Below, one piece after another: positions 3,185-41,892 of a stretch of DNA of 64,000 bases. Location of the stretch: contig CAIKEU010000079.1 of the NCBI GenBank assembly GCA_903826575.1, positions 24,415 through 88,414 on the forward strand. The letters run 5' to 3'. The stretch's first letter is position 1. Every line of letters starts with the position of its first letter. A program made the translations under genes and the position numbers. The DNA comes from an uncultured bacterium (lineage in GTDB: Bacteria; Actinomycetota; Actinomycetes; S36-B12; CAIYMF01). The notes beneath the pieces were generated by a model that saw only the letters and a program-made list of their open reading frames with translations, did not search any database and was not told where the DNA came from.

Positions 3185-3424
3185 TTAGCGTTCGCCGACG
3201 TCGAGGAAGTCGATGCGTACACCCTTGCCATCGGCCAGAGCCCCGACAACGGTGCGCAGGGAAGTAGCGGTACGACCACTCTTACCAATAATGCGACCCA
3301 TGTCTTCTGGGTTTACTCGGACCTCAAGGCTCGGGCCACGACGACCCGTGCGCTGGCGTACTTCAACATCCTCAGGGTGATCAACGATCCCCTTGACAAG
3401 GTGTTCGAGTGCGTCTTCTAGCAC
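3185..3424 (-). CDS. khpA: KH-domain RNA-binding protein (KhpA family)
   Basis: Small KH-domain protein of 79 residues, a length typical of the KhpA family that sits between rpsP and rimM in Gram-positive bacteria. The GxxG RNA-binding loop is GKSG in MGRIIGKSGRTATSLR. The start is the GTG at 3424, one base after the rpsP stop; it gives VLEDALEHLVKGIV, the usual KhpA opening. A longer frame reaching 3538 runs backwards through the low-complexity rpsP tail and should be ignored. In firmicutes KhpA pairs with KhpB; no partner lies in this window. Confidence 0.92.
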   Translation of the reverse strand: MLEDALEHLVKGIVDHPEDVEVRQRTGRRGPSLEVRVNPEDMGRIIGKSGRTATSLRTVVGALADGKGVRIDFLDVGER

Positions 3425-3425
3425 G

Positions 3426-4046: not shown

Positions 4047-4237
4047 GGGGTGGACTTCTCCTCGAGATAAGTGGGTGGATGCATATCGTTCGCGTGGGGT
4101 GCGACGACCATGCTTCCGATGACCTCATTCATTGCGGACCGGTTAGAGGGCCGCCCACGATGACGAGATAACCCGCCTATCGTGCCAGATGACGGGCCGT
4201 TGCACTAAATCGCGGTCGGTTTTAGGGGCTGTTGCCG

Positions 4238-5803: not shown

Positions 5804-5937
5804 GGATCATCCTTACCAGTACGGTTCTCGATCCCGCCGCGGGGCGGAGCTGCGTCAGTAGACGCTCGTACAGCCTAACTTGCCTGGGCCGTGCCCGCCG
5901 ACCCCATCGCCGTGGACCGACACCACACGTTTCTCGA

Positions 5938-27606: not shown

Positions 27607-28410
27607 TTAATCATCTTCAGAACGCACTTCGACGATCCTGCCACGAACCCGCGGCTGCCCATCAGCACTAGGTTTACCAAACGTCCGCACCGTTATCCTC
27701 GTCCGATCGGCTCGAAAGAGATCATGGGAATACTCGAATGGACGTCCGTCAGCGTCGGCGGTTGTACGAGTGACGGAGATAAGCGCTGACCCGGCAGGAA
27801 CGTCCAGCACGAGAGCCTCGCTGTCTCCAGCGGAAAGAACTTCCAGTTGCTCGACGGCCTCATACGGACCAACTCCGTACTCCTGCTCCATGAGTTCATA
27901 GAGAGAACCACCTAGGGGCCGCTCGAGCAGACCAGGGAATCTCTCCGCCGGAAGTTGGACATGCTCCAGGGAAATGGGCAGTCCGTCGGCAAGCCGAATT
28001 CGAACGAGATCGAAAACCAGTTCGTCATCACGTAGAGCCAATGCGTGTGCCGCGTCTGCCTCTGGATGAACGACAGCGGCACTAATGACTCGTGTTCCGG
28101 CCACGTATCCTTGTCCACGAAGCAGGGCTGGCACACCCACGATCCGGGACAGATCCCGATCAATCTTTTCGCGTGCCACGAAGGTGCCACCACCACGTCC
28201 GGGGACGCGTCGAACCGTGCCATCCAACTCAAGGGCTGCTAGCGCCTGCCGCACCGTTGTTCGACTGACACCGAGTTGAAGTGCCAAATCGCGCTCGGCT
28301 CCCAGCCGCTGGCCGGGCCGCAACGCACCTGAGCGGATCATGGAGACCAGATTGCGGCGCGCCTCATCGGCTGTCGGGCCCAGTGTGGCTTCCTGCGCGG
28401 TCATCGACAT
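27607..28410 (-). CDS. GntR/HutC-family transcriptional regulator
   Basis: GntR-family regulator of 267 residues: a winged helix-turn-helix at residues about 15-80 (RPGQRLGAERDLALQLGVSRTTVRQALAALE) and a C-terminal UTRA ligand-binding domain (about 95-260), the HutC subfamily layout. It ends the minus-strand microcompartment operon and probably senses a substrate or intermediate of that pathway. Two ATG codons six bases apart could serve as start; the second (28404) has the better AAGG spacing. The operator candidates are the repeats at 35581-35642. Confidence 0.88.
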   Translation of the reverse strand: MSMTAQEATLGPTADEARRNLVSMIRSGALRPGQRLGAERDLALQLGVSRTTVRQALAALELDGTVRRVPGRGGGTFVAREKIDRDLSRIVGVPALLRGQGYVAGTRVISAAVVHPEADAAHALALRDDELVFDLVRIRLADGLPISLEHVQLPAERFPGLLERPLGGSLYELMEQEYGVGPYEAVEQLEVLSAGDSEALVLDVPAGSALISVTRTTADADGRPFEYSHDLFRADRTRITVRTFGKPSADGQPRVRGRIVEVRSEDD

Positions 28411-28461
28411 CCTTATCCGGTGCGCCCATGCCGGACGTACGCAGAGACTAGCCTGTGTTGA

Positions 28462-29247
28462 CTACTCGGTGACTTCAAGCGCCGCGAGTGACTCGGGAAG
28501 AATTTGTCCGCCATCAATAATCAGCGCCTGCCCCGTAACGTAGGCGGCCTCGTCGGTGGCAAAGAACAGCGCGGCATTACCGATGTCGTCCACCTCGCCG
28601 AGGCGACGCAGCGGAATTGATGACTCCATCGAGGCGCGATACTCCGGACCCATCTCCGCCAATCCTTCAGTGGCGATATTGCCTGGCAGCACTGCGTTTA
28701 CCGTGATACCGCGGTGCGCAAACTCAATAGCAGCCGTGCGCATGAAGCCGAGCTGTGCGGCTTTACTTGCACCGTAATGCGCCCATCCGGGAAATCCAGT
28801 TACCGGGCCGGTGATTGACGAGGTCAGAATGATTCGGCCGTGGCTGGAATCAGTAAGCGCAGGCAGGCAGGACTGAACGGACAGGAACGTACCTTTCACG
28901 TTCGTGTCGAAAACTAGGTCCATGTCCGCCTCGGACATGGTGGAGAAGGGAGCACCTGGGAAGATTCCAGCGTTGGCACACAGAATATCGATTCCGCCAT
29001 TGCGCTCGATCGCTGTCGCAGCCATTTCTTCATTGTGAGACTTCTGGGAGATATCTCCGAGCAGGTACGTCACGGTGCCGTCACCAAGTGCTGTTAGCTC
29101 CGCAGCTGCTGCCACGGCTGACGCTTCGTCACGACCGGTGATGAGAACGTTGGCACCCGCTTTGGCGAAGACACGGGCAATTCCCTTGCCAATCCCCTTC
29201 GTTCCCCCGGTAACGATAACCGAGCGACCAGCGATAGAGGTAAACAT
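28462..29247 (-). CDS. Short-chain dehydrogenase, probable 1-amino-2-propanol dehydrogenase
   Basis: Classical short-chain dehydrogenase/reductase of 261 residues. The NAD(P)-binding motif is TGGTKGIGKG, followed by CANAG, an active-site serine in SSITGP and the catalytic YGASK. The C-terminal DGGQILPE is typical. In the RMM microcompartment of mycobacteria the equivalent gene interconverts aminoacetone and 1-amino-2-propanol; the same neighbours here support that role, though cofactor and direction are inferred. I use the ATG at 29247, which has AGGAG at good spacing, and not the GTG two codons earlier. Confidence 0.85.
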   Translation of the reverse strand: MFTSIAGRSVIVTGGTKGIGKGIARVFAKAGANVLITGRDEASAVAAAAELTALGDGTVTYLLGDISQKSHNEEMAATAIERNGGIDILCANAGIFPGAPFSTMSEADMDLVFDTNVKGTFLSVQSCLPALTDSSHGRIILTSSITGPVTGFPGWAHYGASKAAQLGFMRTAAIEFAHRGITVNAVLPGNIATEGLAEMGPEYRASMESSIPLRRLGEVDDIGNAALFFATDEAAYVTGQALIIDGGQILPESLAALEVTE

Positions 29248-29309
29248 ATTCACTCCTGCACTATGACGAATTGACGTGAGGTGGACTGTTCTTGGATCCG
29301 ATCTAACTA

Positions 29310-30287
29310 CTAACTGAAGTTACTTAGGTACGTCTCGGCGAGATCGCATGACGTAAACGTGAACTGTTCACCCAGAGCCTGCGCCTCGGGAACAGCTGCG
29401 TGGTCGCCAACCCACGCCACCAGTAACAGACGACGTAACATCACGAATGTGGGCAGCTCAGCGATTTCTTCCGCAGACAGGGCGCCCTCCGTCAGGTAGC
29501 CACTGATCCACGAATCGATCAACTCCGGCACCACAGGGTAGTGCTCGATGAACGAGAGCGAAGAGCCGAGATCGTAGAGATACCAACTGAATCCGCAATC
29601 GTCGAAATCGATGACGTTCACATCGGGGCCTTCGACGAGCAAGTTTGCCAACCGCATGTCCGCGTGCACAAGACCGAATCGGTCCGGACCTTTTCCGAAC
29701 GCGTGAAGACGCGCTTTCAAAGTATCCGAGCAGCGTCCCAAAATGAGCCGTTCTGCTGGGCCTACTCCCATACCGTCCTGCCATGGCCCCCAATGGCCAC
29801 GCTCACCAAGGGACGTGTCGTAATCCCAGGTGAATCGGGTGAAGTTGGCTGGCTGCTGCCACGTCTTTGCGTGGCGGTGCAGCCGCGCGGTGATTGCCCC
29901 GATTTGGGCGAAGTCGGCAACGAGTCGCTCTTCGGGAGGCTCAACACCGGTCAACCATTCGAAGGCCACGACGAAACGCTCTTCGCCGTCCGGGTGGGCT
30001 ACAGCGATAACGCTGCGTCCGTCAGGAGTGGCGCGGATGGGCGCTGTTTGAACAATCTCATCGGTCCGTAACGCCTCGATCCACATCAGCTCGCTCTCGA
30101 TCGCTTCGCGCGTGTGGTAGTTCGTTCGGTGCACACGGATTACGAAGCGAGTGTCACCGTCGTCGAGGCGGTACGTCGCATTTTCTGAGACGTTGAGCAG
30201 GGTCAGTTGCGCGTCGGGACGTCCATGTTCCGCGGCAGCTGCACGCGCAAAGACTTCAAGCCGTACGGTATCGAGCGCCTCGCTCAC
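29310..30287 (-). CDS. APH-family kinase, probable (S)-1-amino-2-propanol kinase
   Basis: Aminoglycoside-phosphotransferase-fold kinase of 325 residues. The catalytic loop is LVHADMRLANLLVEG (HxDxxxxN) and the metal-binding motif is VIDFDDCGFSWYLYDLG. An equivalent kinase in the Mycobacterium smegmatis microcompartment phosphorylates (S)-1-amino-2-propanol, giving the phospho-amino-alcohol that a PLP phospholyase then breaks down. Start is GTG at 30287 with GGGAG upstream. It lies between a BMC-T shell gene and the dehydrogenase. Other amino-alcohols cannot be excluded as substrate. Confidence 0.85.
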   Translation of the reverse strand: MSEALDTVRLEVFARAAAAEHGRPDAQLTLLNVSENATYRLDDGDTRFVIRVHRTNYHTREAIESELMWIEALRTDEIVQTAPIRATPDGRSVIAVAHPDGEERFVVAFEWLTGVEPPEERLVADFAQIGAITARLHRHAKTWQQPANFTRFTWDYDTSLGERGHWGPWQDGMGVGPAERLILGRCSDTLKARLHAFGKGPDRFGLVHADMRLANLLVEGPDVNVIDFDDCGFSWYLYDLGSSLSFIEHYPVVPELIDSWISGYLTEGALSAEEIAELPTFVMLRRLLLVAWVGDHAAVPEAQALGEQFTFTSCDLAETYLSNFS

Positions 30288-30359
30288 ACCAACTCCCTTT
30301 CACATCCCCGTGATCCGAACACCACTGATAGCGACGACATCGAGCGGTAGTGCGAGAGA

Positions 30360-31010
30360 TTACTGCCCGCGACCTTCGATTGACTCAAGGACTCGAGTAA
30401 TTGCCTCTTGTGCCTTGAGAACACCAGCGGTAGTGCCACCGATATACACCCGACCGGCGGCGCCGATCATCTGAACATCGACGAGAACATTTTCGGGGGC
30501 AACCTTTTCAGCCTCGTTCGCTGCAACGGCGGCGAAGAGGGCAGGTGTCATTTCGTACACGAGCAAGCTCTGCCCCGGTAGAAGCATTGACGCTTGACGG
30601 TTCCGATTGATGATCACCGCATGCTGATCAGTAACGTTTTCGATCACGTCGTGGTACAGAACTCGCGGAGCGAGCTGATCAGTCGGAACTGCGTTCAAAC
30701 CATCGAGAATCGCCTGACCAGCCGCCATCACGTCATCAAGTGACGACGAGTGGATTTCCAGCACGCCGAACTGGCGCTCGACGAACAGGATACCTGGCTC
30801 AATGTCAGGCACGCTCGTAAGTGCGAGGTGCGTTACGCGCTCAATTGCGAGCCCGGGTGCAACCTCGACGATGAGTGCATGTTGACCGGCGAACGGCGGG
30901 TACCCACGAGCACGCGTAGGCGTGCCCATGTACGCGGCGAACTGCTGCTGGAGGTCTTCCACCAGCAGGTAGACGCGTAACTCAGGTCCCGCGAACGGGA
31001 CTGAGGTCAC
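30360..31010 (-). CDS. BMC-T shell protein (tandem-domain), copy 1
   Basis: Shell protein of 216 residues with two BMC folds in tandem, expected to form trimeric pseudohexamers with a larger, possibly gated pore. The first half has LVEDLQQQFAAYMG and GILFVERQFGVLEIHSSSLDDVMAAGQAIL; the second repeats the fold with LVYEMTPALFAAVAANEAEK and VDVQMIGAAGRVYIGG. It resembles the second BMC-T in this locus closely in layout. The GTG start overlaps the BMC-H stop by four bases (GTGA). It probably passes substrates or cofactors such as NAD or CoA. Confidence 0.9.
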   Translation of the reverse strand: MTSVPFAGPELRVYLLVEDLQQQFAAYMGTPTRARGYPPFAGQHALIVEVAPGLAIERVTHLALTSVPDIEPGILFVERQFGVLEIHSSSLDDVMAAGQAILDGLNAVPTDQLAPRVLYHDVIENVTDQHAVIINRNRQASMLLPGQSLLVYEMTPALFAAVAANEAEKVAPENVLVDVQMIGAAGRVYIGGTTAGVLKAQEAITRVLESIEGRGQ

Positions 31011-31297
31011 GCGGACGCCTCACCCGAAACGTTGAAGTGCTTCGAGAGCTCGTTGTGCGGACGTGGGATCACGTGAACGGAAACCAGTTCGCCGATCGAC
31101 GATGCAGTCTCTGCGCCAGCTTCAGTGGCAGCCTTGACCGCGCCGACATCGCCAACGATCGTGATGGCAACAAGACCGTCACCAACCTGGTCGCGACCAA
31201 CGATGACAACGTTGGCAGCCTTGACCATGGCATCGGCGGCAGCGAGTGCGGCTACATATCCCTTGGTCTCAATGAGACCAATTGCGTTGTTCGACAT
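31007..31297 (-). CDS. BMC-H hexameric shell protein
   Basis: Single-domain BMC shell protein of 96 residues, the likely main facet component. It shows the Pf00936 pattern: AIGLIETKGYVAALAAADAM, VVIVGRDQVGDGLVAITIVGDVGAV and the C-terminal VHVIPRPHNEL. It is the only BMC-H gene in the locus. A strong AAGGAG precedes its ATG, and two small identical hairpins lie in the leader between it and the BMC-P gene, which could raise its yield relative to the other shell genes. Confidence 0.95.
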   Translation of the reverse strand: MSNNAIGLIETKGYVAALAAADAMVKAANVVIVGRDQVGDGLVAITIVGDVGAVKAATEAGAETASSIGELVSVHVIPRPHNELSKHFNVSGEASA

Positions 31298-31318
31298 TGC
31301 TGTCTCCTTCTGTGTTCG

Positions 31319-31360
31319 CCACGTTTTCGTGGACAGTTCGGGTCACCACGTGAGACGTGG
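31319..31360 (-). promoter_or_regulatory. Two tandem small hairpins ahead of the BMC-H gene
   Basis: Two stem-loops with the same five-base arms, CCACG and CGTGG, occupy 31319-31332 (loop TTTT on the plus strand) and 31346-31360 (loop TGAGA). They lie in the 79-base gap between the BMC-P stop and the BMC-H start, the longest gap among the shell genes. They may be a processing or stability element for the abundant shell message. No T-run follows, so termination is unlikely. Confidence 0.4.
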
Positions 31361-31376
31361 ACTGATGGGTAAAGAA

Positions 31377-31655
31377 CTACTTCTTACGGGTCTTAACTGT
31401 GTCCGTTGCAGACGGGACGGGATCGATCGAGCCGATGATGAGGGCATCGATCGGCGGTGCTACGGGCCCCGGAAACCAGGACGCCGCGACAGAACCGGTG
31501 GCGACGAGAACAGTCTCGCCAACACCAGAGCCGAGGACATCGAAAGCGATGAGCTTCGCTCCACCATCGATCTCGACCTCAAGGAATGCACCTGCAGGAA
31601 TCTGCTCCAGTCGACGGCTGGCCCAGACATTGCCGATTACCTTCGCGCGCAGCAT
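31377..31655 (-). CDS. BMC-P pentameric vertex protein (EutN/CcmL family)
   Basis: Pentamer-forming vertex protein of 92 residues that closes the corners of the shell. The family pattern is MLRAKVIGNVWASRRLE, AFDVLGSGVGETVLVATGS and PIDALIIGSIDPV, followed by a short basic tail. The ATG at 31655 has AAGGAG five bases upstream and overlaps the preceding TGA stop (TGATG); a GTG one codon earlier is less likely. It is the only vertex gene in the locus. Confidence 0.94.
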   Translation of the reverse strand: MLRAKVIGNVWASRRLEQIPAGAFLEVEIDGGAKLIAFDVLGSGVGETVLVATGSVAASWFPGPVAPPIDALIIGSIDPVPSATDTVKTRKK

Positions 31656-32095
31656 CACGTCTCCTTTGTGATTTTCACGCCAGCCGCCCGTGCGCGATCG
31701 CGCGCGAGCGGAGTCATGACAGCCCGCTTACCGAGTACGAGAATCGCACCCGAATCAGCGGCCTCGCGGACATGCTTTTCCGTTACGGCACCCTTTTCCA
31801 CACGAACAATCGCATCAGATACGACGCTCGTCGAGGCCGGGGCCACATGTGACACAGTCGAAACTGCTAAACGGAAACTTCGGGTTCCGGCGACAATCGC
31901 ATCTCGCTCAGCCTGAGTGGCTGTGGCGACTCGTCGCGCGAACGCATTCAGTTCAGCGTCCGAGTTGATGTTGACTACCTCGGTGGGAGAACCGGCTGGG
32001 TCAAGCGCCATTGTTTGCGGGACAACATCAGCGAGTACTTGCCGCACCATTTGGCGCAGCAAGTCTCGCTCGTTATCACCTAGGCCCACGGTCAC
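31655..32095 (-). CDS. Conserved microcompartment-associated protein, function unknown
   Basis: Protein of 146 residues with no enzyme motif that I recognise. Residues about 7-25 (DNERDLLRQMVRQVLADVV) form a short amphipathic helix like the encapsulation peptides of microcompartment cargo, followed by a Pro/Thr/Ser linker. The C-terminal third has GAILVLGKRAVMTPLARDRA, a turn-rich motif that occurs in several microcompartment-associated proteins. It overlaps both neighbours (GTGA with the BMC-T gene, TGATG with BMC-P), so it is firmly part of the shell operon. A cargo or scaffold role is inference only. Confidence 0.7.
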   Translation of the reverse strand: MTVGLGDNERDLLRQMVRQVLADVVPQTMALDPAGSPTEVVNINSDAELNAFARRVATATQAERDAIVAGTRSFRLAVSTVSHVAPASTSVVSDAIVRVEKGAVTEKHVREAADSGAILVLGKRAVMTPLARDRARAAGVKITKET

Positions 32096-32694
32096 TGCAC
32101 ACCTCGTAGCGAGGCCTCGGCAGCTTCAGCGGCCTGCCGCACATTACTTTCAGTTCCAGAGAGGTAAACCCTCCCGGTGGCACCGATCATGCGGTAGTCA
32201 ACAACCTTGATATCGGCCGCCTTCTCCGCTTCGTTGGTCGCAAGAATCGCGTACGACGCAGGGGCCATCTCAAGGACGAATAGCGACTCACCTGGCAGGG
32301 CCATCGAGCCAACCTTGTTGCGGTTGATGAGAAAGGCATGTTGACGATCAAGCATCGTGACGATTCGCGAGGCCAGAATTTGCGGGCGAACTGCCGACGA
32401 CGTATCCGTTCCCAGCGCATCGAGTACGGCCTCGCCAGCCGCTTTCACCTGCCCGGTCGGACCATGAATCTCGAGGTAACCGAACTGGCGCTCAACGACC
32501 AAAATGCCAGCCTGGACTTCCGCATACTTGAGGGCGACGTCAGTCAGCGGCTCGATATCCAACCCCGGCGCTACCTCAATGATCTGTGCTGCCACATCTG
32601 CCCGCGGCAGCGCGCCCTTGATCCACGTGCCGAGGTAACACATCGTCTGCGGCTGCAGGCGATCAAGGAAGATGAACGAACGAAGTTCTGCCAC
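32092..32694 (-). CDS. BMC-T shell protein (tandem-domain), copy 2
   Basis: Second tandem-domain shell protein, 200 residues. The first domain includes FIFLDRLQPQTMCYLGTW and GILVVERQFGYLEIHGPTGQV; the second includes LFVLEMAPASYAILATNEAEK and VVDYRMIGATGRVYLSG. Both BMC-T copies share VERQFG and MIGA(A/T)GRVY signatures, so they arose by duplication but have diverged. The GTG start lies five bases after the aldehyde dehydrogenase stop, with AGGGG upstream. Confidence 0.92.
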   Translation of the reverse strand: MAELRSFIFLDRLQPQTMCYLGTWIKGALPRADVAAQIIEVAPGLDIEPLTDVALKYAEVQAGILVVERQFGYLEIHGPTGQVKAAGEAVLDALGTDTSSAVRPQILASRIVTMLDRQHAFLINRNKVGSMALPGESLFVLEMAPASYAILATNEAEKAADIKVVDYRMIGATGRVYLSGTESNVRQAAEAAEASLRGVQ

Positions 32695-32699
32695 GTAGG

Positions 32700-34265
32700 T
32701 CAGCCCCTGACAATCGCATTGAGCTCTTCAATGATCAGACGACGAATTTCATCGCGTAATTCATCTGGGGCGTCGTTGGACATTGCAACGGTAGATGGAA
32801 CAAGTGGAGCTGCAGTCAAATCGTTCGAGGCCCGCGGATATGCAGGCACAGCAGCGGTCGGGGTGTGCCACGGGGTCAACCCAGCAAAGTCCGCCATCGG
32901 CACTAAGGCATCGGTGTTGTACGCAATGCGCGTCCAGTTGATCAGATGCTTCGGTTCGAGGTTCTCCCCCACCGACGAGCGGCCAAGGAAGCCAGTGCCG
33001 ATGGTCATGGTCGGTGCAAGATTCGTTTCGATACCCGATGCGCCGAGGCTGTTGCCCACGTTTACTGAGACGCGCAGAACTCGCACGGCAGCTGAGAAAG
33101 CCATGATTGTCTGAGGATTCGACGAGTGGATAGCAGCCGAATGTCCCTGACCAGTAATGCGAAGGACCGCCTGAGCCGCATCGATTCCACGACTAACGTT
33201 AGGCACACGCACGAGGCCAAGCACTGGGCACAACTTCTCGTGAGCCAACGGCTCTTCGGGAACGACGAGGTCGAAGGGTGCCACCAGAATCTTTGTGCGT
33301 GCATTCACCCGAACGTTGGCCGCGGCCGCAATCGCAGTGGCATCCTTGCCCACCCACTTCGGATCAAAATGACCCTCGGGGAAAACAAGATCGCGAACGC
33401 GATCACGCTCGTCATCGGAAAGAAGGTGTGCACCTGCACGAGTCATCGCGTTGAGCAGTGCCGCAGCAGCGGACTCTTCAACGATCAGAACACTCTCGTT
33501 CGTGCAAAGGATGGAGTTATCGAACGACTTGCTTTCGACGATTCGTTGTGCGGTCGCGTTGAGATCTGCAGTCGCATCAACCAGTACCGGCACATTTCCT
33601 GGGCCAACCCCAATAGCCGGATTACCACTGCGGTAGGCAGCGCGAACCATCGGAGTTCCGCCAGTGGCCAAGATCACGTCCGTTCGAGGATCGGTCATCA
33701 GAGCGTTAATGAGTGGAATAGACGGCTCTTCAACGACCTGAATACATCCGTCGGGAGCACCGGCGGCAACAGCCGCGGCCGCCATCGTGCGCGCTGCTTC
33801 GGCGCACACGGCTTTGGCGTAGGGGTGCGGGCTGATGACGATTGCATTTCGCGTTAGCAGCGCCAACATAATCTTGAACATGACCGTCGCAACCGGATTT
33901 GTCGACGGTGTCAGCGCGAGCACGACGCCGGCAGGTCGCGGAACTTCAACCATTTTGTCGGAGCTGTCGATCACGACATCGATGTAGTCGCTCGCGCGGT
34001 ACTTCGCCGCGATGCCTGTTGAACAGGCAAGATTTTTGAGCAACTTGTGCTCGGCAACTCCATAGCCCGTCTCACGCACTGCCCACTCGGCAAATTCCTT
34101 TGAGCGCGCGGCACCGGCCTGCGCAGTGGCGTCGACGATGCGCTGCACGGTCGCAGCGTCGTAGGTGGCGAACGCACGCGCAGCCCATTCGGCGCGCTCG
34201 ATCATTGCTCGGCCGCGCGGGACGCCGGCGGGGTCAAGTGGCATTTCAAACATTGTGTCAACCAT
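32700..34265 (-). CDS. CoA-acylating aldehyde dehydrogenase with C-terminal encapsulation helix
   Basis: Aldehyde dehydrogenase of 521 residues of the PduP/EutE type, converting propionaldehyde, NAD and CoA to propionyl-CoA. The catalytic cysteine is Cys254 in SFDNSILCTNESV; PSTNPVATVMFK and GGNPAIGVGPGN-like cofactor segments are present (here GNPAIGVGPGNVP). After the catalytic domain comes a Pro/Ala/Thr linker and a final amphipathic helix (PDELRDEIRRLIIEELNAIV), a standard cargo-targeting peptide placed at the C-terminus as in RMM loci. The ATG shares one base with the upstream stop (TAATG). Confidence 0.93.
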   Translation of the reverse strand: MVDTMFEMPLDPAGVPRGRAMIERAEWAARAFATYDAATVQRIVDATAQAGAARSKEFAEWAVRETGYGVAEHKLLKNLACSTGIAAKYRASDYIDVVIDSSDKMVEVPRPAGVVLALTPSTNPVATVMFKIMLALLTRNAIVISPHPYAKAVCAEAARTMAAAAVAAGAPDGCIQVVEEPSIPLINALMTDPRTDVILATGGTPMVRAAYRSGNPAIGVGPGNVPVLVDATADLNATAQRIVESKSFDNSILCTNESVLIVEESAAAALLNAMTRAGAHLLSDDERDRVRDLVFPEGHFDPKWVGKDATAIAAAANVRVNARTKILVAPFDLVVPEEPLAHEKLCPVLGLVRVPNVSRGIDAAQAVLRITGQGHSAAIHSSNPQTIMAFSAAVRVLRVSVNVGNSLGASGIETNLAPTMTIGTGFLGRSSVGENLEPKHLINWTRIAYNTDALVPMADFAGLTPWHTPTAAVPAYPRASNDLTAAPLVPSTVAMSNDAPDELRDEIRRLIIEELNAIVRG

Positions 34266-35563
34266 TAGCGGAACTTCCGTTCTGACATCACATCGGCCCG
34301 GGCCTTGGCAATGCCAACCTCGGTTCGATCGAGCAGTTCCTCGGCAAGTTCCGGCTTCACAAGAATGCCTGGCTTGTATTGCAGTACCCGGGGATCCAGG
34401 GTCGAGAAGATCGCCCAGACACCATTTTCGTAAAGGCGCTTCATTACGAACTTCGCACCCTGCGGGTCCGCAAACTCCAGACCCATAACGACGCCGTTTT
34501 GCCTGATGCCTATGAACCAGTCGGGATACGTAGCCTGAATCTCTCGCAGGCCTCTACCGATGAAGTCAGAGATGTAGTGCACCATCGAACGAGTCTCCGG
34601 GCGATTGCAGATCTCCAAAGCCTTCAGCGCAGCAATACAGCCGAGCTCGGCCCCGCCGAAGGTGGAGATGTGTCCGAAGCCGTCCTCAGTGAGCCATCCA
34701 GCACATCGCTCACTGACCAGCACGGCAGCAATCGGGTACATGCCGCCGGAAATTCCCTTGCCCGTCACCAAGATGTCTGGCTCGATGCCGTGCTTGGTGA
34801 TTCCCCAGAGTTCGCCGGTACGCATCAGGCCGGTCTGAACTTCGTCAGCAATGTATAGAGCGTCGTACTTTTCGCACAACTGCTTCACGGCTTCGAGATA
34901 GCCGGGGTTGGGCAGCGGGAAGCCGTACGTCGCGGGGATTGTCTCCATGATGACGGCAGCAATATCGCGGCCCTTAAGGACCTCTTCCATCGCTTCGAGA
35001 TCATTGAAGGGGACGTGCGGGAAGTCTTCTTCATTGTCCGATAGGAACAGTTTGGAGAACCGATCGTCACCGGTACCAACAGCTAGACCGGTATGACCGT
35101 GATACGCCTTGATAATCGACAGGATTTTGCGCTTCTGCGTCGCGTGGCGAGCAGTCTTGATCGCGATATCGATCGCCTCGCCACCACCAGATCCGTAAAT
35201 CACCTTGGTCAGGTTTTTCGGTGCGCTGGCTATCAGCGACTCAGCCAGTGCGGTACGAGCCAGCGACGGGAAGTGGTGGTTGCCCATGTCGAAGTGCTGC
35301 ATGGCGACCGTGATTGCCTGAACCATCTCGCGGTTGCGGTGACCGAGGTTGTACGTGCCCCCGTTGAGATGTGCGTCGATCAGGCGCTTGCCCGAGACGT
35401 CGTAGATGAAGTACTCCTCGCGGCGGTCAATAACCAGCGGGATTCCGGACTCTGACCAGAAACTGGTCTTGCCCGGATTCCAGTACTCCTTGCTCTTCTC
35501 AAGCACCTCATCCTTTGAGGCGAAAGAGAAGAAGCCGTAGTCCAGCGCAGTGGCATCGGACAT
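34265..35563 (-). CDS. Class III aminotransferase-fold PLP enzyme, probable amino-alcohol-phosphate phospholyase
   Basis: PLP-dependent class III aminotransferase-fold protein of 432 residues. The PLP lysine is Lys269 in VTGKGISGG, the ring-nitrogen Asp is Asp240 in IADEVQTG, and phosphate contacts GSGGGEA and AYHGHTGL are present. Some members of this fold are phospholyases acting on phosphoethanolamine-like substrates. In the RMM pathway the enzyme is proposed to cleave phospho-1-amino-2-propanol to propionaldehyde, ammonia and phosphate, consistent with the nearby kinase. True transamination is the alternative. The start ATG at 35563 has GGGAGG upstream. It is the first gene of the minus-strand operon. 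Confidence 0.85.
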   Translation of the reverse strand: MSDATALDYGFFSFASKDEVLEKSKEYWNPGKTSFWSESGIPLVIDRREEYFIYDVSGKRLIDAHLNGGTYNLGHRNREMVQAITVAMQHFDMGNHHFPSLARTALAESLIASAPKNLTKVIYGSGGGEAIDIAIKTARHATQKRKILSIIKAYHGHTGLAVGTGDDRFSKLFLSDNEEDFPHVPFNDLEAMEEVLKGRDIAAVIMETIPATYGFPLPNPGYLEAVKQLCEKYDALYIADEVQTGLMRTGELWGITKHGIEPDILVTGKGISGGMYPIAAVLVSERCAGWLTEDGFGHISTFGGAELGCIAALKALEICNRPETRSMVHYISDFIGRGLREIQATYPDWFIGIRQNGVVMGLEFADPQGAKFVMKRLYENGVWAIFSTLDPRVLQYKPGILVKPELAEELLDRTEVGIAKARADVMSERKFR

Positions 35564-35580
35564 GGGACCTCCCGCTCGGT

Positions 35581-35642
35581 CAGTAGACCAAATCATACCG
35601 ATTATTCATACCAATACAAGACCAATTCTTGATCAATTGGTC
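35581..35642 (-). promoter_or_regulatory. Candidate operators for the PLP-enzyme/shell operon
   Basis: A perfect inverted repeat GACCAATT-CTTGATC-AATTGGTC (8-base arms, 7-base spacer) spans 35620-35642. Between it and the PLP-enzyme start, the minus strand reads further TTGGT/TCGGT half-sites: TTGGTATGA, TCGGTATGA and TTTGGTCTACTG, spaced 10-13 bases apart. They lie 18-79 bases upstream of the start at 35563, a suitable place for repression by the locus GntR regulator. The binding protein is inferred. Confidence 0.6.
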
Positions 35643-35774
35643 GCAAGGAAAACCGCACTGCGTCGTCATTCGGCGTGTCCATGACGTTTCGTCCGTGTAA
35701 AACTTGCCAGTTCGTGAGCGTGACGGACGCTAAAGTGCCACGTCACCACGGAATTGGTTCGGGAAAGTGCTTGA

Positions 35775-35855
35775 TTCGGTCCACTAACTAACGACATACT
35801 CCCCTCCAACATGTGATCGGGGTCACCAGAAACCGAATCACTCGTTTGGTCCACT
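35775..35855 (+). promoter_or_regulatory. Direct repeat ahead of the permease gene
   Basis: Two near-identical copies, TTCGGTCCACT at 35775-35785 and TTTGGTCCACT at 35845-35855, lie 70 bases apart in direct orientation, 40-120 bases upstream of the permease start. They share the GGTC(C/T)ACT core with TTTGGTCTACT on the other side of the divergent region, which suggests one regulator controls both arms. Confidence 0.5.
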
Positions 35856-35894
35856 GTTAAGCGCGCATCCGCGAGCGAAAGGAACATCACTCGA

Positions 35895-37481
35895 ATGAGT
35901 ACTGCCCTACCCGGCGATCACCAACTGACCGCCAACGAGCACAACAAACTGAAGGCCGGCACCGTTGGGCTCTTCGGCGTGCTGTTCATGGCACTCGCTA
36001 ACGCAGCGCCGATCACAGCCATGACAGGTAACGTGCCGATCGCTATCGCGTTCGGCAACGGCATCTACGCTCCCGCCGGATTTGTCCTGGCCACGATCGT
36101 TCTGACGCTGTTCACGATCGGATTCATCTCGATGGCCCGCTACATCACCACGACCGGTGCTTTCTACGGCTTCATCAGCCATGGCCTCGGCCAGATCTGG
36201 GGTATGGCGACTGGCTTCATGGCCACGATGTGTTACATCGTGTTTGAGGGGTCACTCATCGGAATCTTCGCCTACTTCGCAAGCCAAGCGATTAACACCT
36301 GGACAGGTGCGACCATTAACTGGCTGCTCATTGCCCTCATCGGCATCATCCTGGTCGGCGTCCTTGGATACTTCGACATCTCGATTGCCGCCAAACTCTT
36401 GGGCTTCTTCCTGATCTGTGAGGTTGTACTGCTTGCCGCTCTCGCCTTCTCGGTGCTCTTCAAGGGTGGCGGCCCCGACGGCCTCATGTCCGACATCGTC
36501 AATCCACTGAACGCATTCAAGAGCATGCCAGAAGGTGGCGGCACCAATCCGGCCGTCATGGTTGGCGACCCAGCAGCACCCATCGCAGCTGGTGCCGCAG
36601 CCCTGGGTGTGTTCTTCGCATTCTGGTCTTGGATCGGTTTCGAGACGACCGCGGTCTACGGCGAAGAGTCGCGCAACCCGCGCAAGATCGTTCCTCAGGC
36701 AACGTTGTTCGCGGTTATAGCACTCGGTGTCTTCTACTCATTCGTTTCATGGATGGTTATCGCCGGTAACGGTGCCAACCAGGCGATCACGAAGTCGTAC
36801 ACGAACGCCATCACCATGTTCACCGATCTCGCGGTTGCGAACCTCGGCGGTGAATGGGTCCGAACCGTCTACTTGGTTCTCATCGTTTCGGGTTCCTTCG
36901 CTTGCGCGTTGGCCTTCCACAACGCAGCCTCGCGTTACCTCTACGCGATCGGCCGTGAGGTGCCCGCTCTGCGCAGCAACCTTGGCGCGACGCACGCAAC
37001 GCACGGCTCACCGCACATCGCATCGATCGTTCAGACGATCATTACCGTCCTGCTCACGGTCGGTTTCTACTTCCTAACGCCAAACGGTAGCGATGTTCTT
37101 CAAGGCGGCTACATCTTCGAATACGGCCTGCTGGCCCTACTCGGAACTCTGGCCATCCTGCTGGTCATGGCAATTTGTTCGATCGCCGTCATCTGGTACT
37201 TCTGGGTCAAGAAGGTACACACGGGTAACGTCTTCTCGACGCTGATCGCACCAGCACTTGGCTTCCTCGGCATGATGTACGTCGTTTACCTGCTCCTGAG
37301 CAACATCACCTTCGCCGGTGGTGGCGCCGCGGGTTCAGCATTCTTCGTCGCTATCCCGTGGATTACCCTGGCCACATTCGTTGCCGGTCTGCTATTCGCC
37401 CTCTGGATCAAGAAGAGCCAGCCAGACGTGTACGCAGAAATCGGACGCACTGTGCTTGAAGAAGCTCACGAGCGCGTCTAA
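35895..37481 (+). CDS. APC-superfamily amino acid/amine permease
   Basis: Membrane transporter of 528 residues with about 12 transmembrane helices, of the amino acid-polyamine-organocation superfamily. The first helix carries GVLFMALANAAPITAMTGNVP and helix 6 region WSWIGFETTAVYGEESRNPRK, the usual APC substrate and cytoplasmic-loop motifs. Permeases of this type accompany RMM loci and probably import the amino-alcohol or amine substrate. It is divergent from the PLP-enzyme gene and is followed by a strong hairpin before the dehydratase genes. The substrate is inferred from context. Confidence 0.9.
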   Translation: MSTALPGDHQLTANEHNKLKAGTVGLFGVLFMALANAAPITAMTGNVPIAIAFGNGIYAPAGFVLATIVLTLFTIGFISMARYITTTGAFYGFISHGLGQIWGMATGFMATMCYIVFEGSLIGIFAYFASQAINTWTGATINWLLIALIGIILVGVLGYFDISIAAKLLGFFLICEVVLLAALAFSVLFKGGGPDGLMSDIVNPLNAFKSMPEGGGTNPAVMVGDPAAPIAAGAAALGVFFAFWSWIGFETTAVYGEESRNPRKIVPQATLFAVIALGVFYSFVSWMVIAGNGANQAITKSYTNAITMFTDLAVANLGGEWVRTVYLVLIVSGSFACALAFHNAASRYLYAIGREVPALRSNLGATHATHGSPHIASIVQTIITVLLTVGFYFLTPNGSDVLQGGYIFEYGLLALLGTLAILLVMAICSIAVIWYFWVKKVHTGNVFSTLIAPALGFLGMMYVVYLLLSNITFAGGGAAGSAFFVAIPWITLATFVAGLLFALWIKKSQPDVYAEIGRTVLEEAHERV

Positions 37482-37507
37482 GCACTGTTGCACTTCCCGT
37501 AACTGAT

Positions 37508-37550
37508 CTGCGGGGTGCGTTGCGTGGTTTCCACGTAACGCACCCCGCAG
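37508..37550 (+). terminator. Long hairpin between permease and dehydratase genes
   Basis: A 14-base perfect stem CTGCGGGGTGCGTT / AACGCACCCCGCAG encloses a further five-base stem CGTGG-TTT-CCACG after one mismatch. It begins 27 bases after the permease stop. Only a weak T-tract follows (TAATTTC), so it may be a partial terminator or an RNA-stability element setting the ratio of permease to dehydratase. Confidence 0.75.
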
Positions 37551-37604
37551 TAATTTCTGGCACTACCGTTTACCCATGAGAACTGCTAAGGAGCGCCCGC
37601 AACC

Positions 37605-39848
37605 ATGAATGACACCGATCGCATCGGCCGGTTTCGCTTCATGGACGCTCAACGAGTCAACCTAGACGGGTTCGCGGTCGAAGATGAATCGCTTGGACTC
37701 ATCGCCTTTAGTGCTGAGGCCGACCCCGAACCAACGCTTGTCCTTGACGCGCATGGCAACGTGGTCGAAATGGACGGCCGGGAGGCGGCGAACTTCGATC
37801 TCATCGACGAATTCATCGCCCGACACGGTCTTGACCTCAGCGTCGCCTCGGAGGTTATGGCACTCGACGACGTTGAGTTCGCGCGTCGAATCGTCGACAT
37901 AAACGTTCCTCGGGCCGAGATCATTCGGCTTGCTGCGGGGGCAACCCCGGCGAAACTTGCGCGTGTCCTTTCCCGGCTCCGCGCAGCCGAGCTCGTCATC
38001 GCAATGACGAAGATGCGCGCACGCAAGACCCCGAGCAACCAGGCACATGTCACAAACAGATCAGACGATCCGCTGCTGCTTGCTGCCGATGCCGCGACAG
38101 CAGCAGCCTTCGGATTCCGCGAAATCGAAACCACCGTTCCCGTGCTCGGTGATGCGCCGAGTAACGCGGTGGCTGTGTCGATTGGTGCTGCGGTGGGCGC
38201 CGTTGGCGTGCTCGTACAGTGCTCAGTTGAGGAGGCACTCGAACTCGAACTCGGGATGGCGGGGCTCGTCTCCTACGCAGAGACCGTCTCGATCTACGGA
38301 ACTGAGCAGATTTTTATTGATGGCGACGACACCCCATGGTCCAAGGCGCTGTTGACCTCTGCTTATGCAAGCCGCGGAATGAAGATGCGCGTTACATCCG
38401 GTGGCGGCTCTGAGGCACTCATGGGGGCTGCGGAAAATCGGTCCATTTTCTACCTCGAGGCTCGCTGTGTGTCGCTCGCCAGAGCCCTTGGGACACAAGG
38501 TGTTCAGAACGGTGGGATTGACGCCGCGTCCGTCTCGGGATCCGTGCCCGGCGGTGCGCGCAGCATGATGGCTGAAAACCTCATGGTGATGATGCGTAAT
38601 CTCGAGGCGTGCACGGGAAACGATGCGCTCATGAGCGAGTCGGATGTAAGGCGCACCTCACGCACCCATCCGATCTTTATCGCCGGAACTGATTTCGTCT
38701 GCTCAGGTTTCGGATCGATTCAGCGCTACGACAATATGTTTGGCCCTAGTCAATGGAACTCTGAAGACATCGACGATTTCCTCATCATGCAGCGTGACTG
38801 GACCGTCGATGGCGGCCTGCGTAGTGCTTCCGAGCCCGAGGTTGCCCGTTTACGACGTCGCGCGGCTCATGCCGTCCGGGACGTCTACCGCTTCCTCGGC
38901 CTAGCCGACTTTGATGATTCCTGGGTCGAGCAGGCTATAGACGCCGCCGGTTCAAAGGACATCCCAGCAGCCGATCTCATGACCCCCCTTGATGCATCGC
39001 GAATCATTCGCCAGTCTCGCGTCACGATGGTGGACGTCGTCGCAGCACTTGATGCATGCGGGTACGAAATCGAAGCAGAGCGCCTACTCGCGATGCTGCA
39101 CGCACGCGTTGACGGTGATTACCTCCACACTGCTGCCATCTTCGACGAGCAGATGAACGTGATGTCTCTGGTTACAGATGCCAACGATTATGCGGGGCCC
39201 GGCACGGGTTACGAGATCACCGGAACGCGGCTCACCGAACTCAATGGCGTACGTCAACAGCGATCGGTCAGCGACCTGCGCGATGAACAGGCCGCTGCTG
39301 CCGGAAATCACTTCACTGTCGTCGGCGCCGCCGCAGCGGGATCGGACCCGACAGAAGTCACCATCGGAGTGTCCGCAGCCACGGGACGGGCGATCTGGAC
39401 AACGCTTTCTGGTCTTTCCGTCGTAGACGTACTTGACGAGTTGTTAGCCGGACTCGAGGAGGAGGGCTGCCGCGGGCGGATTATCCGAATCAACGACACC
39501 GTCGACCTCGGAATGATCGGGCTGACGGCTGCACGGTTGTCGGGATCCGGTATCGGGATTGGGTTGCAGGCAAAGGGCACTGCGTTGATCCATAGACGAG
39601 ACCTATCGCCGCTAGCAAATCTCGAGCTTTACAGTGTGGCGCCAACCGTAACGCCCGAGCTGTATCGCGCACTGGGTATCAATGCCGGTCGGCACGCCAA
39701 GGGCGCCACTCCCGAGCCAGTGCGAAACCCATACTCCGACATGGCAATCGAGGCGCGCTTCCACACGAAAGTGGTCTCACTTGTTGCGATTGAACGAACG
39801 TGTCTCAGCCCAGAACTTGGCCCGGAAGATCTGGAGTTGACCCGATGA
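37605..39848 (+). CDS. B12-dependent diol dehydratase, large and medium subunits fused
   Basis: Coenzyme-B12-dependent propanediol/glycerol dehydratase of 747 residues. Residues 1 to about 555 match the large subunit (PduC): NLDGFAVEDE, TPSNQAHVTN with His148 and IETTVPV with Glu175 (equivalent by eye to catalytic His143 and Glu170 of the Klebsiella enzyme), YGTEQIFIDGDDTPWSK, and DANDYAGPGTGY near 530. From about 580 to the end it matches the medium subunit (PduD): TIGVSAATGRAIW, LLAGLEEEGCRGRIIRI and RLSGSGIGIGLQAKGT, the cobalamin-binding part. The two are separate genes in the classic Pdu operon. The join removes the free PduD N-terminus, which carries the targeting peptide in Pdu systems. 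AAGGAG lies 11 bases before the ATG. Confidence 0.92.
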   Translation: MNDTDRIGRFRFMDAQRVNLDGFAVEDESLGLIAFSAEADPEPTLVLDAHGNVVEMDGREAANFDLIDEFIARHGLDLSVASEVMALDDVEFARRIVDINVPRAEIIRLAAGATPAKLARVLSRLRAAELVIAMTKMRARKTPSNQAHVTNRSDDPLLLAADAATAAAFGFREIETTVPVLGDAPSNAVAVSIGAAVGAVGVLVQCSVEEALELELGMAGLVSYAETVSIYGTEQIFIDGDDTPWSKALLTSAYASRGMKMRVTSGGGSEALMGAAENRSIFYLEARCVSLARALGTQGVQNGGIDAASVSGSVPGGARSMMAENLMVMMRNLEACTGNDALMSESDVRRTSRTHPIFIAGTDFVCSGFGSIQRYDNMFGPSQWNSEDIDDFLIMQRDWTVDGGLRSASEPEVARLRRRAAHAVRDVYRFLGLADFDDSWVEQAIDAAGSKDIPAADLMTPLDASRIIRQSRVTMVDVVAALDACGYEIEAERLLAMLHARVDGDYLHTAAIFDEQMNVMSLVTDANDYAGPGTGYEITGTRLTELNGVRQQRSVSDLRDEQAAAAGNHFTVVGAAAAGSDPTEVTIGVSAATGRAIWTTLSGLSVVDVLDELLAGLEEEGCRGRIIRINDTVDLGMIGLTAARLSGSGIGIGLQAKGTALIHRRDLSPLANLELYSVAPTVTPELYRALGINAGRHAKGATPEPVRNPYSDMAIEARFHTKVVSLVAIERTCLSPELGPEDLELTR

Positions 39849-40207
39849 GCACTGCCCGATCAGGACGCGACACCGCCGACGTCACGTTGGATTCGATTCG
39901 ACTTGGCGAGGTGACCATGGACGACGTCACCATCCATCCGGACACCCTCGTACGTCAGGCGCAGGTTGCCCGTGATCACGCAAACCCTCAGTTAGCTGAA
40001 AACCTACTTCGAGCGGCTGAGCTTACGTTGATTCCCGACGATGAAGTCCTTGCGATGTACGAGGCCTTGCGTCCAGGACGTTCGACCACCGATGAACTTC
40101 GAGCACTGTCAGTGTCACTGAGCGAGCGTGGCGCACCTCGCACCGCCGCCCTTATCGACGAGGCCGCAGCCGCCTATGCGCGACGCGGTATCGCGAAGCA
40201 AGGCTGA
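39845..40207 (+). CDS. Diol dehydratase small subunit
   Basis: Small (PduE-type) subunit of the dehydratase, 120 residues. Conserved segments are VTLDSIRLGEVTMDDVTIHPDTL, PQLAENLLRAAELTLIPD and MYEALRPGRST. Its ATG overlaps the stop of the fused large/medium gene by four bases (ATGA), so stoichiometric coupled translation is expected. The N-terminal 20 residues are Ser/Arg/Asp-rich and do not look like a targeting helix. Confidence 0.92.
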   Translation: MSTARSGRDTADVTLDSIRLGEVTMDDVTIHPDTLVRQAQVARDHANPQLAENLLRAAELTLIPDDEVLAMYEALRPGRSTTDELRALSVSLSERGAPRTAALIDEAAAAYARRGIAKQG

Positions 40208-40221
40208 GAGCACACGCGGAC

Positions 40222-41892
40222 GTGACAATCATTGCTGGGGTCGATGTCGGCAACTCGACGACCGAGATCGTGATTGTCGACACCTCCACAGTCCCACCAA
40301 CCCCGATCGTCTGGGATCGCATCCCAACTCGAGGGGTTAAAGGTTCAGCCGATTCAGCCCATGCGGCCGCTCTCGTTCTACGACGACTGGCCAAGCGCGC
40401 AGACGTGAGTATCGACGAAATCGTAATATCTCCACAGCATCCCGTTGATTCACGGACCATCGTCATTGATGAGCCACCACCGGATACAGGTCGGCTCGCC
40501 ATCATCGGTAGCGGCACCTCAACCCCCGCCGGCTTCGGGGTAGGCATCGGTGTTCCACGACGTTTGTCCGGTGACATCGACATCAACGTTCCAGTGGTAC
40601 TCGTCGCCGAAGATCCGCGCTCCTATCGGGAAACCGCGCGTCGAATCAACGAGTGGCTTTTAGCCGAAGCTGATGTGGTCGGCGTCGTGTTGGCCGGTGA
40701 CGAAGCAGTTCTCGTCGGGAATCGAATCTCCAAACAGTTACCTGTCGTAGATCAAGTCGATGTCGACATCGCTCTGTCTGCAACGCAGGTTGCGGTTGAG
40801 GTGTCCGCTTCGGGGGTGCATGATCTCGCAGATGCTGTGCGCATCTCCGCGTTGACCGGACTCGACCGAACCGAGCATGCCGATGCAGAGGCTATCGCCA
40901 ACCAATTGCGGGGTATCCGCGATGCCGCGATTGCGATCTTCGACGAGCGACGCGCCACACCCGTCTCCCCCGGCCGCACAACTCACGTGAAAGTAGACGA
41001 CGACATCCGCGATCTCCGCGAGGTCGCCATCAGCCCACTACGAGCACGCGAGGGTGGGTCATTAGCCTTCGACGCGTCGACGTGGCAGCCATTTGCCGAT
41101 CTCTGGGCAGTCGATCTCGCCGAGGTTGCCGATACCAGCGCCATTCGTCCACGCAGCGTCAATGAACGAGCGATATCTTGTGCCACTCTTGCCGATACGA
41201 CTGGCGATCCGACCGACGTCCCAGCCCGCATCCTGTCCGAGCAACTCGGGCTACCCGTATTTCTCGCGTCGAGTGAGGCAACAGCCGCGCGTATTGGAGC
41301 GCTGAGTACACCCGCGGCGAATCCCGACGCACTGGTGCTCGACCTCGGCGGTGGCACTATAGACGCAGCGTCATCGAGTGATCACAGCATCGTGGTGGCG
41401 GGCGCAGGTGATCTGCTAACGGCCGCGGTCGCACACCTGCTGAACATCCCGCGGGGTGCCGCAGAGTGGGTTAAGCGTGAGCCGAGCGCGCGGCTAGAAG
41501 GTCCGCATGTTTTGGTCGGCGAGGACGGCGTTCGACGATTCGTCGACGTTCCGGTTACGGCCGATGCGGTTGGCTCACTTGTTGTACCCGGACCTGCAGG
41601 CTTACTACCGTTCAACGGTCACCTAGCGCCGGGTGAATGGCGGATGCTTCGTCAACAACTCAAGCGTGCAGTCATCAGTAGGAATATCAAACGTGCAACT
41701 TCCGGCATTGACACTGCGCGTGACGCCATTCTCGTTGGCGGGCCTGCAGGTGATACCGAACTTCTAAGCATGGCAGTTCGAGCCCTACCCGGTTGCACAC
41801 CCGGCAGGGCTGACGTGGCCGGACAGCTTGGGCATCGTTGGGCGGTGGCCTACGGACTTACCTTGCTGCATCAGCGCGGTGAAACCGAATGA
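40222..41892 (+). CDS. Diol dehydratase reactivase, large subunit
   Basis: Reactivating factor large subunit (DdrA/PduG type), 556 residues, an actin/Hsp70-like ATPase that exchanges damaged cobalamin out of the dehydratase. The N-terminal nucleotide motif is IAGVDVGNSTTEIVIVD and the second phosphate motif is VLDLGGGTIDAAS near residue 375. Start is GTG at 40222, 14 bases after the small-subunit stop. The usual small partner (DdrB/PduH) is absent here, and the next gene, ddl, lies on the opposite strand. Confidence 0.92.
   Translation: MTIIAGVDVGNSTTEIVIVDTSTVPPTPIVWDRIPTRGVKGSADSAHAAALVLRRLAKRADVSIDEIVISPQHPVDSRTIVIDEPPPDTGRLAIIGSGTSTPAGFGVGIGVPRRLSGDIDINVPVVLVAEDPRSYRETARRINEWLLAEADVVGVVLAGDEAVLVGNRISKQLPVVDQVDVDIALSATQVAVEVSASGVHDLADAVRISALTGLDRTEHADAEAIANQLRGIRDAAIAIFDERRATPVSPGRTTHVKVDDDIRDLREVAISPLRAREGGSLAFDASTWQPFADLWAVDLAEVADTSAIRPRSVNERAISCATLADTTGDPTDVPARILSEQLGLPVFLASSEATAARIGALSTPAANPDALVLDLGGGTIDAASSSDHSIVVAGAGDLLTAAVAHLLNIPRGAAEWVKREPSARLEGPHVLVGEDGVRRFVDVPVTADAVGSLVVPGPAGLLPFNGHLAPGEWRMLRQQLKRAVISRNIKRATSGIDTARDAILVGGPAGDTELLSMAVRALPGCTPGRADVAGQLGHRWAVAYGLTLLHQRGETE

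Follow-up and report, generated by a model that had tools for sequence, protein, structure and literature searches.

Our analysis of a 64,000-nucleotide stretch of DNA from an uncultured member of the Actinomycetota (contig CAIKEU010000079.1 of assembly GCA_903826575.1, positions 24,415 to 88,414 of the forward strand; hereafter the window, in whose own numbering positions are given) revealed a microcompartment locus of the RMM2 type at positions 27607–41892. Three gene modules make up the locus: predicted amino-alcohol enzymes together with a permease, a six-gene cassette of shell and aldehyde dehydrogenase genes, and a fused, coenzyme-B12-dependent dehydratase with an aspartate at pocket position 301 (Klebsiella oxytoca numbering). 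We propose, from sequence comparison, that the dehydratase serves a 1,2-diol bearing an amino group, likely in the cytosol, and not 1,2-propanediol in the shell; we put the probability of this reading at roughly 0.38. The initial annotation had suggested a dual-substrate compartment in which 1-amino-2-propanol and 1,2-propanediol both give propionaldehyde. Co-inheritance of the two arms is borne out; 1,2-propanediol as the substrate is weakened by the altered pocket, and the tie to the shell by 14 loci that lack one. Because of the pocket residues, the plain conversion of 1,2-propanediol to propionaldehyde was considered and rejected as the best reading and is treated below as a rival.

The role of the dehydratase in such loci has been unsettled since 2014, when Axen et al., in the relevant passages of PMC4207490, defined RMM2 as an RMM locus with added diol dehydratase genes, noted the opposite strand of the latter, and offered two views: that the dehydratase goes unused by the compartment, which they preferred, or that the compartment is bifunctional. 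Both the combination, which the initial annotation had proposed to look for in locus catalogues, and the dual-substrate idea were therefore already in print, and portions of Sutter et al. 2021 (PMC8217296) use RMM1 and RMM2 as established types. The window holds the RMM2 gene set (shell proteins, aldehyde dehydrogenase, pyridoxal-phosphate (PLP) enzyme, kinase, short-chain dehydrogenase/reductase (SDR), amino acid permease and GntR regulator), with the diol dehydratase genes on the opposite strand and the same synteny from permease to regulator. It differs from the published type in lineage, the RMM2 loci described in that part of PMC4207490 being those of mycobacteria and Rhodococcus, whereas the window's lineage comprises many freshwater metagenome-assembled genomes (MAGs). 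The alpha–beta fusion, the pocket residues and the shell-less relatives go unmentioned in the RMM2 passages of that paper, and our literature search, with subscription papers largely outside its scope, found no treatment of the pocket residues of the fused enzyme or of shell-less versions of the locus. Because one pocket residue differs in a fixed manner and shell-less loci exist, the question can be addressed by assaying a single purified enzyme on a set of candidate substrates.

An Altered Pocket in the Fused Dehydratase

The dehydratase (positions 37605–39848, plus strand) is a single chain of 747 amino acids that joins a PduC-type alpha part (PF02286, E = 1e-224) and a PduD-type beta part (PF02288, E = 3e-25), and it is homologous along this whole chain to the adenosylcobalamin-dependent diol and glycerol dehydratases of K. 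oxytoca (1dio) and K. pneumoniae (1iwp). When aligned to the canonical enzymes it retains the complete catalytic set Q141, H143, E170, E221, Q296, D335 and S362, identical to that of 1dio and 1iwp; the numbering of these residues is the one we take to be customary, anchored on the 1dio/1iwp alignment. The difference lies around substrate C3, where the canonical Ser301 and Gln336 are replaced by aspartate (Asp306 of the window enzyme, codon 38520–38522, plus strand) and alanine (Ala341, codon 38625–38627, plus strand), the alignment placing these two at K. oxytoca positions 301 and 336. Among the matches listed, all 240 relatives of the window enzyme and of one mycobacterial protein carry Asp301, with alanine (120) or asparagine (120) at position 336, versus Ser301 and Gln336 in all 120 relatives of five canonical unfused enzymes; the lists consist of nearest neighbours clustered at 90%, and one canonical row is unaligned over the first catalytic positions. 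Asp301 recurs in 36 of 36 further loci, partly from the same genomes, with Asn (29), Ser (4), Ala (2) or Thr (1) at position 336, and two fused alphaproteobacterial enzymes pair it with Thr336. A tree calculated without three pocket columns separates the fused actinobacterial, fused alphaproteobacterial and unfused enzymes, its branches being long and its root a midpoint root.

What would such a change do to the substrate range? According to parts of PMC9850924, position 301 hydrogen-bonds the 3-hydroxyl of glycerol in structure 3AUJ, and kinetic passages of PMC7674605 give the Klebsiella S301A/Q336A double mutant a kcat/Km for 1,2-propanediol of 0.04, as opposed to 5.1 for the wild type. Since aspartate and alanine replace serine and glutamine around C3, and since the closest mutants in print perform poorly with 1,2-propanediol, this diol is weakened as the substrate of the window enzyme.

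Propanediol utilisation (PDU) systems carry an N-terminal targeting helix on PduD and PduE. In the window the N-terminus of PduD has been lost in the fusion, and inspection by eye, which for PduE was based on relatives, found no targeting tail of either type.

Two Arms Kept Together, with or without a Shell

A scan of public genomes yielded 31 loci encoding the dehydratase, mostly in Actinomycetota MAGs; 30 span both fused parts and one (L033) is cut by a contig end. An RMM-type PLP gene lies near the dehydratase in 22 of the 31, divergently as in the window in 21 cases and on a single strand in the remaining one, a gammaproteobacterial MAG (L031) in which all locus genes point the same way. 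As eight of the other loci are cut by a contig end on the PLP side and only L025 lacks a PLP gene, the two-arm arrangement is beyond chance. Of 166 genomes searched in the window's order, 37 have BMC-P (one match falling below the cut-off) and 33 the large subunit of the dehydratase; 29 have both (p = 6e-21), leaving eight genomes with BMC-P only and four with the dehydratase only. In 19 of the 29 the best matches sit on one contig, 4.7–9.2 kb apart, and in the other 10 they are on separate contigs.

Two observations on individual members of this set may be recorded here. In L025 (1346–14220) the fused dehydratase stands behind an oligopeptide-type ABC transporter and a gene for an oxidoreductase with DAO and GCV_T domains, in a MAG without a BMC-P match. 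Four of the loci (L005, L006, L021 and L030) come from MAG records titled Bifidobacterium breve; their close kin are freshwater actinobacterial MAGs, and the titles look like wrong names.

The mycobacteria show that the shell is optional. The search covered 198 genomes of one genus, which its protein names identify as Mycobacterium/Mycolicibacterium, and looked for the PLP enzyme, BMC-P and the fusion protein; genes were called near when they lay within 20 kb. Among 53 places with the PLP gene, 12 have both BMC-P and the fused dehydratase near, 17 have only BMC-P near, with the fused dehydratase located elsewhere, six have BMC-P near and no fused dehydratase, and three have BMC-P only elsewhere in the genome. 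In 14 places the dehydratase is near in a genome without BMC-P, and in one further genome without BMC-P (70% complete) it lies elsewhere. Every genome with the PLP gene and without BMC-P thus carries the fused dehydratase (15 of 15, adjacent in 14), compared with 31 of 37 genomes with BMC-P.

Inspection of the 14 shell-less loci found no window-type shell or aldehyde dehydrogenase gene in any of them. GntR, SDR, kinase and PLP genes are all present in 12, the two others being L089, which ends in the kinase, and L092, which ends just past the PLP gene; in 13 the kinase gene comes immediately after that of the PLP enzyme. All 14 have the dehydratase, its small subunit and the reactivase, the last of which is cut in L086; every locus but L091 also shows the permease (13 of 14). 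Since all 14 lack shell and aldehyde dehydrogenase genes and keep the others, these genes are absent as one block. In a tree of 47 PLP sequences the shell-less rows require one change (one or two in bootstraps) and sit among shell-bearing mycobacteria, which points to loss as the origin of the shell-less state; the branch uniting them has a support of only 41/93. A role of the dehydratase that is bound to the shell is weakened, because these 14 loci retain both arms without shell or aldehyde dehydrogenase genes and no targeting tail was seen by eye.

Transporters and Enzymes Accompanying the Dehydratase

In mycobacterial loci the dehydratase, its start chosen by homology, begins 9–54 nt behind the permease stop in 14 of 19 cases and 71–113 nt behind it in the other five, an arrangement that resembles a single operon. 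Of 14 mycobacterial loci in which the dehydratase operon stands alone, five (L106–L110, approximately positions 3400–6300) have it divergent from a different gene of the amino-acid-permease family and a PucR-type regulator gene, the latter profile-tested in two of the five. These permeases are 30–32% identical to that of the window, and for the one that was profiled TIGR00909 ranked first and the ethanolamine permease model TIGR00908, the best named hit, second, neither reaching its cut-off.

The association extends beyond the Actinomycetota. The gammaproteobacterial locus L031 includes an ABC transporter with a TOBE_2 ATPase domain, presumably of the polyamine kind. On plasmids of Shinella and Agrobacterium (L078, 7980–15847; L079, 8980–16840) a fused Asp301 dehydratase, a small subunit, a UgpC-type ABC transporter, an SDR, a phosphotransferase, a class-III PLP enzyme and a GntR regulator follow one another in a row, and no shell or reactivase gene was seen in either stretch. 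The PLP enzyme of the Shinella plasmid is only 25% identical to that of the window, and its kinase is PRK06148-like.

Proposed Model and Alternative Explanations

On the basis of these data, of protein family membership and of work on M. smegmatis, we propose the following model. In the amino-alcohol arm, uptake of an amine would fall to the permease, and interconversion of amino-ketone and amino-alcohol to the SDR. The amino-alcohol would be phosphorylated by the kinase, and loss of phosphate and ammonia, catalysed by the PLP enzyme, would leave an aldehyde, which the encapsulated acylating dehydrogenase would turn into acyl-CoA. In the dehydratase arm, Asp301 may be paired with a substituent at C3 of the substrate that is cationic or hydrogen-donating, with the small residue at position 336 making room for it. 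3-Amino-1,2-propanediol would be an example of such a substrate, and the dehydratase would work in the cytosol beside the amino-alcohol pathway, whether or not the latter is packed into a shell. We further speculate, somewhat more tentatively, that the fused Asp301 enzymes form a new class of coenzyme-B12 dehydratases for amino-substituted diols (converting, for instance, 3-amino-1,2-propanediol to 3-aminopropanal), which together with the amine permease, amino-alcohol kinase and phospholyase would constitute an amine-catabolism module of the Actinomycetota, with or without a shell, and with a separately assembled alphaproteobacterial counterpart; RMM2 would then be the shell-bearing version of this module. 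If amino-diols are indeed taken, a much-engineered B12 enzyme family would gain a natural class of substrates, and the shell-bearing and shell-less sister loci would offer a natural experiment on the purpose of the microcompartment.

Several points weigh against an amino-diol substrate in the cytosol. Turnover of 1,2-propanediol remains in the double mutant (kcat 98 per s, wild type 304 per s), and with glycerol the mutant loses little efficiency (kcat/Km 0.08, wild type 0.14), a pattern that a polyol would explain at least equally well (both from the kinetic passages of PMC7674605); an S301D mutant was not found in the literature searched. Structure prediction of the fusion was too poor to be of use (pLDDT 56), and helix moments failed to discriminate as a test for targeting, so that the absence of a tail is judged by eye only. 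The persistence of the PLP enzyme and kinase in shell-less loci means that shell loss cannot decide which enzymes are encapsulated in loci that have a shell. No amine-transporter neighbour was seen in the other nine of the 14 stand-alone loci. Stand-alone loci flanked by wax-ester-synthase, peroxidase, DUF2237 or unidentified genes gave no hint of a substrate. The ABC transporters of the two alphaproteobacterial operons are of the sugar/polyol type, which counts against an amine or leaves the amine reading open, and a terminator-like hairpin separates the permease from the dehydratase in most loci of the window's type. Lastly, part of PMC6620236 proposes another route for the amino-alcohol arm, via lactaldehyde.

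For the pocket, the main rival is a polyol: Asp301 would hydrogen-bond a C3 hydroxyl, the natural substrate being glycerol or some longer polyol, and inactivation by glycerol would be limited by the altered residue 336. The double mutant, which loses its efficiency with 1,2-propanediol, keeps most of that with glycerol, and the single mutants are inactivated more slowly in the presence of glycerol (k_inact 1.15 to 0.22 and 0.081), although the double mutant gains nothing in kcat/k_inact (0.006, wild type 0.009; all as tabulated in the portions of PMC7674605 used here). S301A/Q336A is also better than the wild type on longer diols and accepts 1,2,4-butanetriol, again better than the wild type, according to the pertinent passages of PMC9850924, and the alphaproteobacterial transporters would suit a polyol. 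The permeases that adjoin the dehydratase in actinobacterial loci and in five of 14 stand-alone loci are nevertheless of an amino-acid family, and amino-alcohol kinase and PLP genes accompany the dehydratase in two phyla. We regard a polyol as a rather unlikely substrate.

For the locus as a whole, the main rival is the dual-substrate shell of the initial annotation, Axen's alternative in PMC4207490, in which 1,2-propanediol would become propionaldehyde inside the compartment and share the aldehyde dehydrogenase with the 1-amino-2-propanol route. Co-inheritance and adjacency of the arms and the intact catalytic residues speak for it, as does Paracoccus yeei TT13, which the survey in PMC8156839 lists as RMM2 and which grows on 1,2-propanediol; yet no pdu operon is described in the genome paper of that strain (PMC5773746), which infers that the pathway leads to pyruvate. 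With Asp301 and Ala336 in the pocket, no shell in 14 loci and the PduD N-terminus lost, we consider it unlikely. That the two arms are neighbours without any functional tie, the view preferred by Axen et al., would agree with their opposite strands, with the hairpin, and with the 38 of 65 mycobacterial places in which no PLP gene lies within 20 kb of the fused dehydratase. It accounts poorly for the presence of the dehydratase in every mycobacterial genome that has the PLP gene and no shell, for a permease and dehydratase that look co-transcribed in mycobacteria, and for an association seen in different families and also in a gammaproteobacterial MAG; we hold it to be very improbable.

Regulatory Features

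The divergent intergenic region between the arms (35597–35894) contains GACCA/TACCA half-sites, a motif chosen after looking, of which 21 such regions hold 59 against 20 in shuffles. In 19 regions between permease and FmdA the count is six against 5.7 in shuffles, the FmdA start being set too early in four of the 19. Between the window's permease and dehydratase lies a terminator-like hairpin with a 20-bp stem (37508–37550, plus strand; −42.3 kcal/mol, z = −7.65), and 20 of 24 window-type loci, that of the window among them, have a hairpin with a stem of at least 16 bp at this place. In mycobacteria the divergent region upstream of the permease and dehydratase is conserved, and so is a TTGGTAGTGCCAATAT-like element upstream of the two genes; no palindrome common to the window-type and mycobacterial groups was found. 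For the shared regulation expected by the initial annotation the answer is therefore mixed: it is not contradicted in mycobacteria, where permease and dehydratase are arranged like an operon. In the window's lineage the evidence runs partly against it, because the hairpin intervenes and the half-sites outnumber those in shuffles in the divergent region but not between permease and FmdA.

A Crp-like palindrome, GTGAC-N4-GTCAC, occurs on the permease side of seven of the 21 divergent regions, as ATGTGATCGGGGTCACC in that of the window. Apart from two tRNAs, the window gave no Rfam match at gathering thresholds, and hence none to a cobalamin riboswitch.

Gene Content of the Locus

The minus arm, read from 35596 down to 27607, begins with a class-III PLP enzyme, a predicted phospholyase (34265–35596; PF00202), and an acylating-type aldehyde dehydrogenase identified by profile matches (32700–34265). 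The latter ends in an amphipathic helix (approximately 32703–32768) that, judged by eye, is kept in all 17 relatives with a complete C-terminus, three more being cut. There follow a CcmP-like BMC-T shell protein (32092–32694; PF00936; NF053796, E = 2e-61), a protein of 146 amino acids without a Pfam family or assigned function (31655–32095), the BMC-P vertex protein (31377–31658; PF03319, E = 8e-16), a BMC-H shell protein (31007–31297; PF00936, E = 2e-25) and another CcmP-like BMC-T protein (30360–31010; NF053796, E = 1e-59, below that model's cut-off). The arm closes with an APH-fold kinase, likely a 1-amino-2-propanol kinase (29310–30287; PF01636; phmmer match to 6ef6, E = 4e-92), an SDR, likely a 1-amino-2-propanol dehydrogenase (28462–29253; phmmer matches to 6ci8 and 6ci9, E = 3e-93 to 4e-93), and a GntR/UTRA transcription regulator (27607–28410; PF00392, PF07702), all ten genes lying on the minus strand. 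The chains 6ef6, 6ci8 and 6ci9 we take to be RMM enzymes of M. smegmatis with these activities. The gene for the 146-residue protein is conserved; its N-terminus appears amphipathic and targeting-helix-like (16 relatives, judged by eye), and its C-terminus is a weak match to TIGR02536.

The plus arm, all on the plus strand, opens with the amino-acid-permease-family transporter (AA_permease_2 by profile match; 35895–37481). Behind the fused dehydratase come a PduE-type small subunit (39845–40207; PF02287) and a PduG-type reactivase large subunit of 556 amino acids (40222–41892; PF08841, PF18427). The small-subunit reading frame is open from 39800, and its likely ATG at 39845, judged from the starts of relatives, overlaps the stop of the fusion gene. 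The gene content agrees with the initial description of an RMM-type locus joined to a B12 dehydratase arm, and the dehydratase and reactivase assigned to this arm are present; the alpha and beta dehydratase subunits turned out to be one protein, the arm starts with a permease, and no separate PduH was detected among the 20 window proteins scanned.

The aminoacetone utilisation microcompartment (RMM1) of M. smegmatis, studied by Mallette and Kimber, is said to have the same shell set, SDR, kinase, PLP enzyme and aldehyde dehydrogenase in the same order. RMM1 loci, as characterized in sections of PMC4207490, are without the dehydratase arm that the window possesses. Compared with canonical diol and glycerol dehydratases, the window enzyme differs in its fusion, its two pocket residues and the lack of a separate PduH among the window proteins scanned. 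In PDU microcompartments, too, shell and aldehyde dehydrogenase genes adjoin a B12 dehydratase, while the window has shell genes of the RMM kind and, among the same 20 proteins, no PduL, PduQ or PduH, for which the rest of the genome was not searched. Because the window's own genome has a PduO-type adenosyltransferase domain (PF01923) and three methylmalonyl-CoA mutase matches, supply of the cofactor and disposal of propionyl-CoA are plausible.

RMM2 loci are set apart from RMM1 by the absence of the RMM1 hydrolases, and no hydrolase was seen among the locus proteins scanned; but between permease and dehydratase 25 of the 31 related loci carry an FmdA/AmdA-family amidase gene (L011, 8518–9998, and counterparts) and 26 an HbpS-like gene; both are absent from the window (37481–37605), L029 and L032. 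In two loci without the dehydratase (L070 and L074), FmdA stays beside the permease. The window's own genome holds two FmdA-family pieces elsewhere, at two contig ends (contig C90, 6–611, and contig C3, 8–487), which are 57–59% identical to the FmdA of L011 and are perhaps one gene split by assembly.

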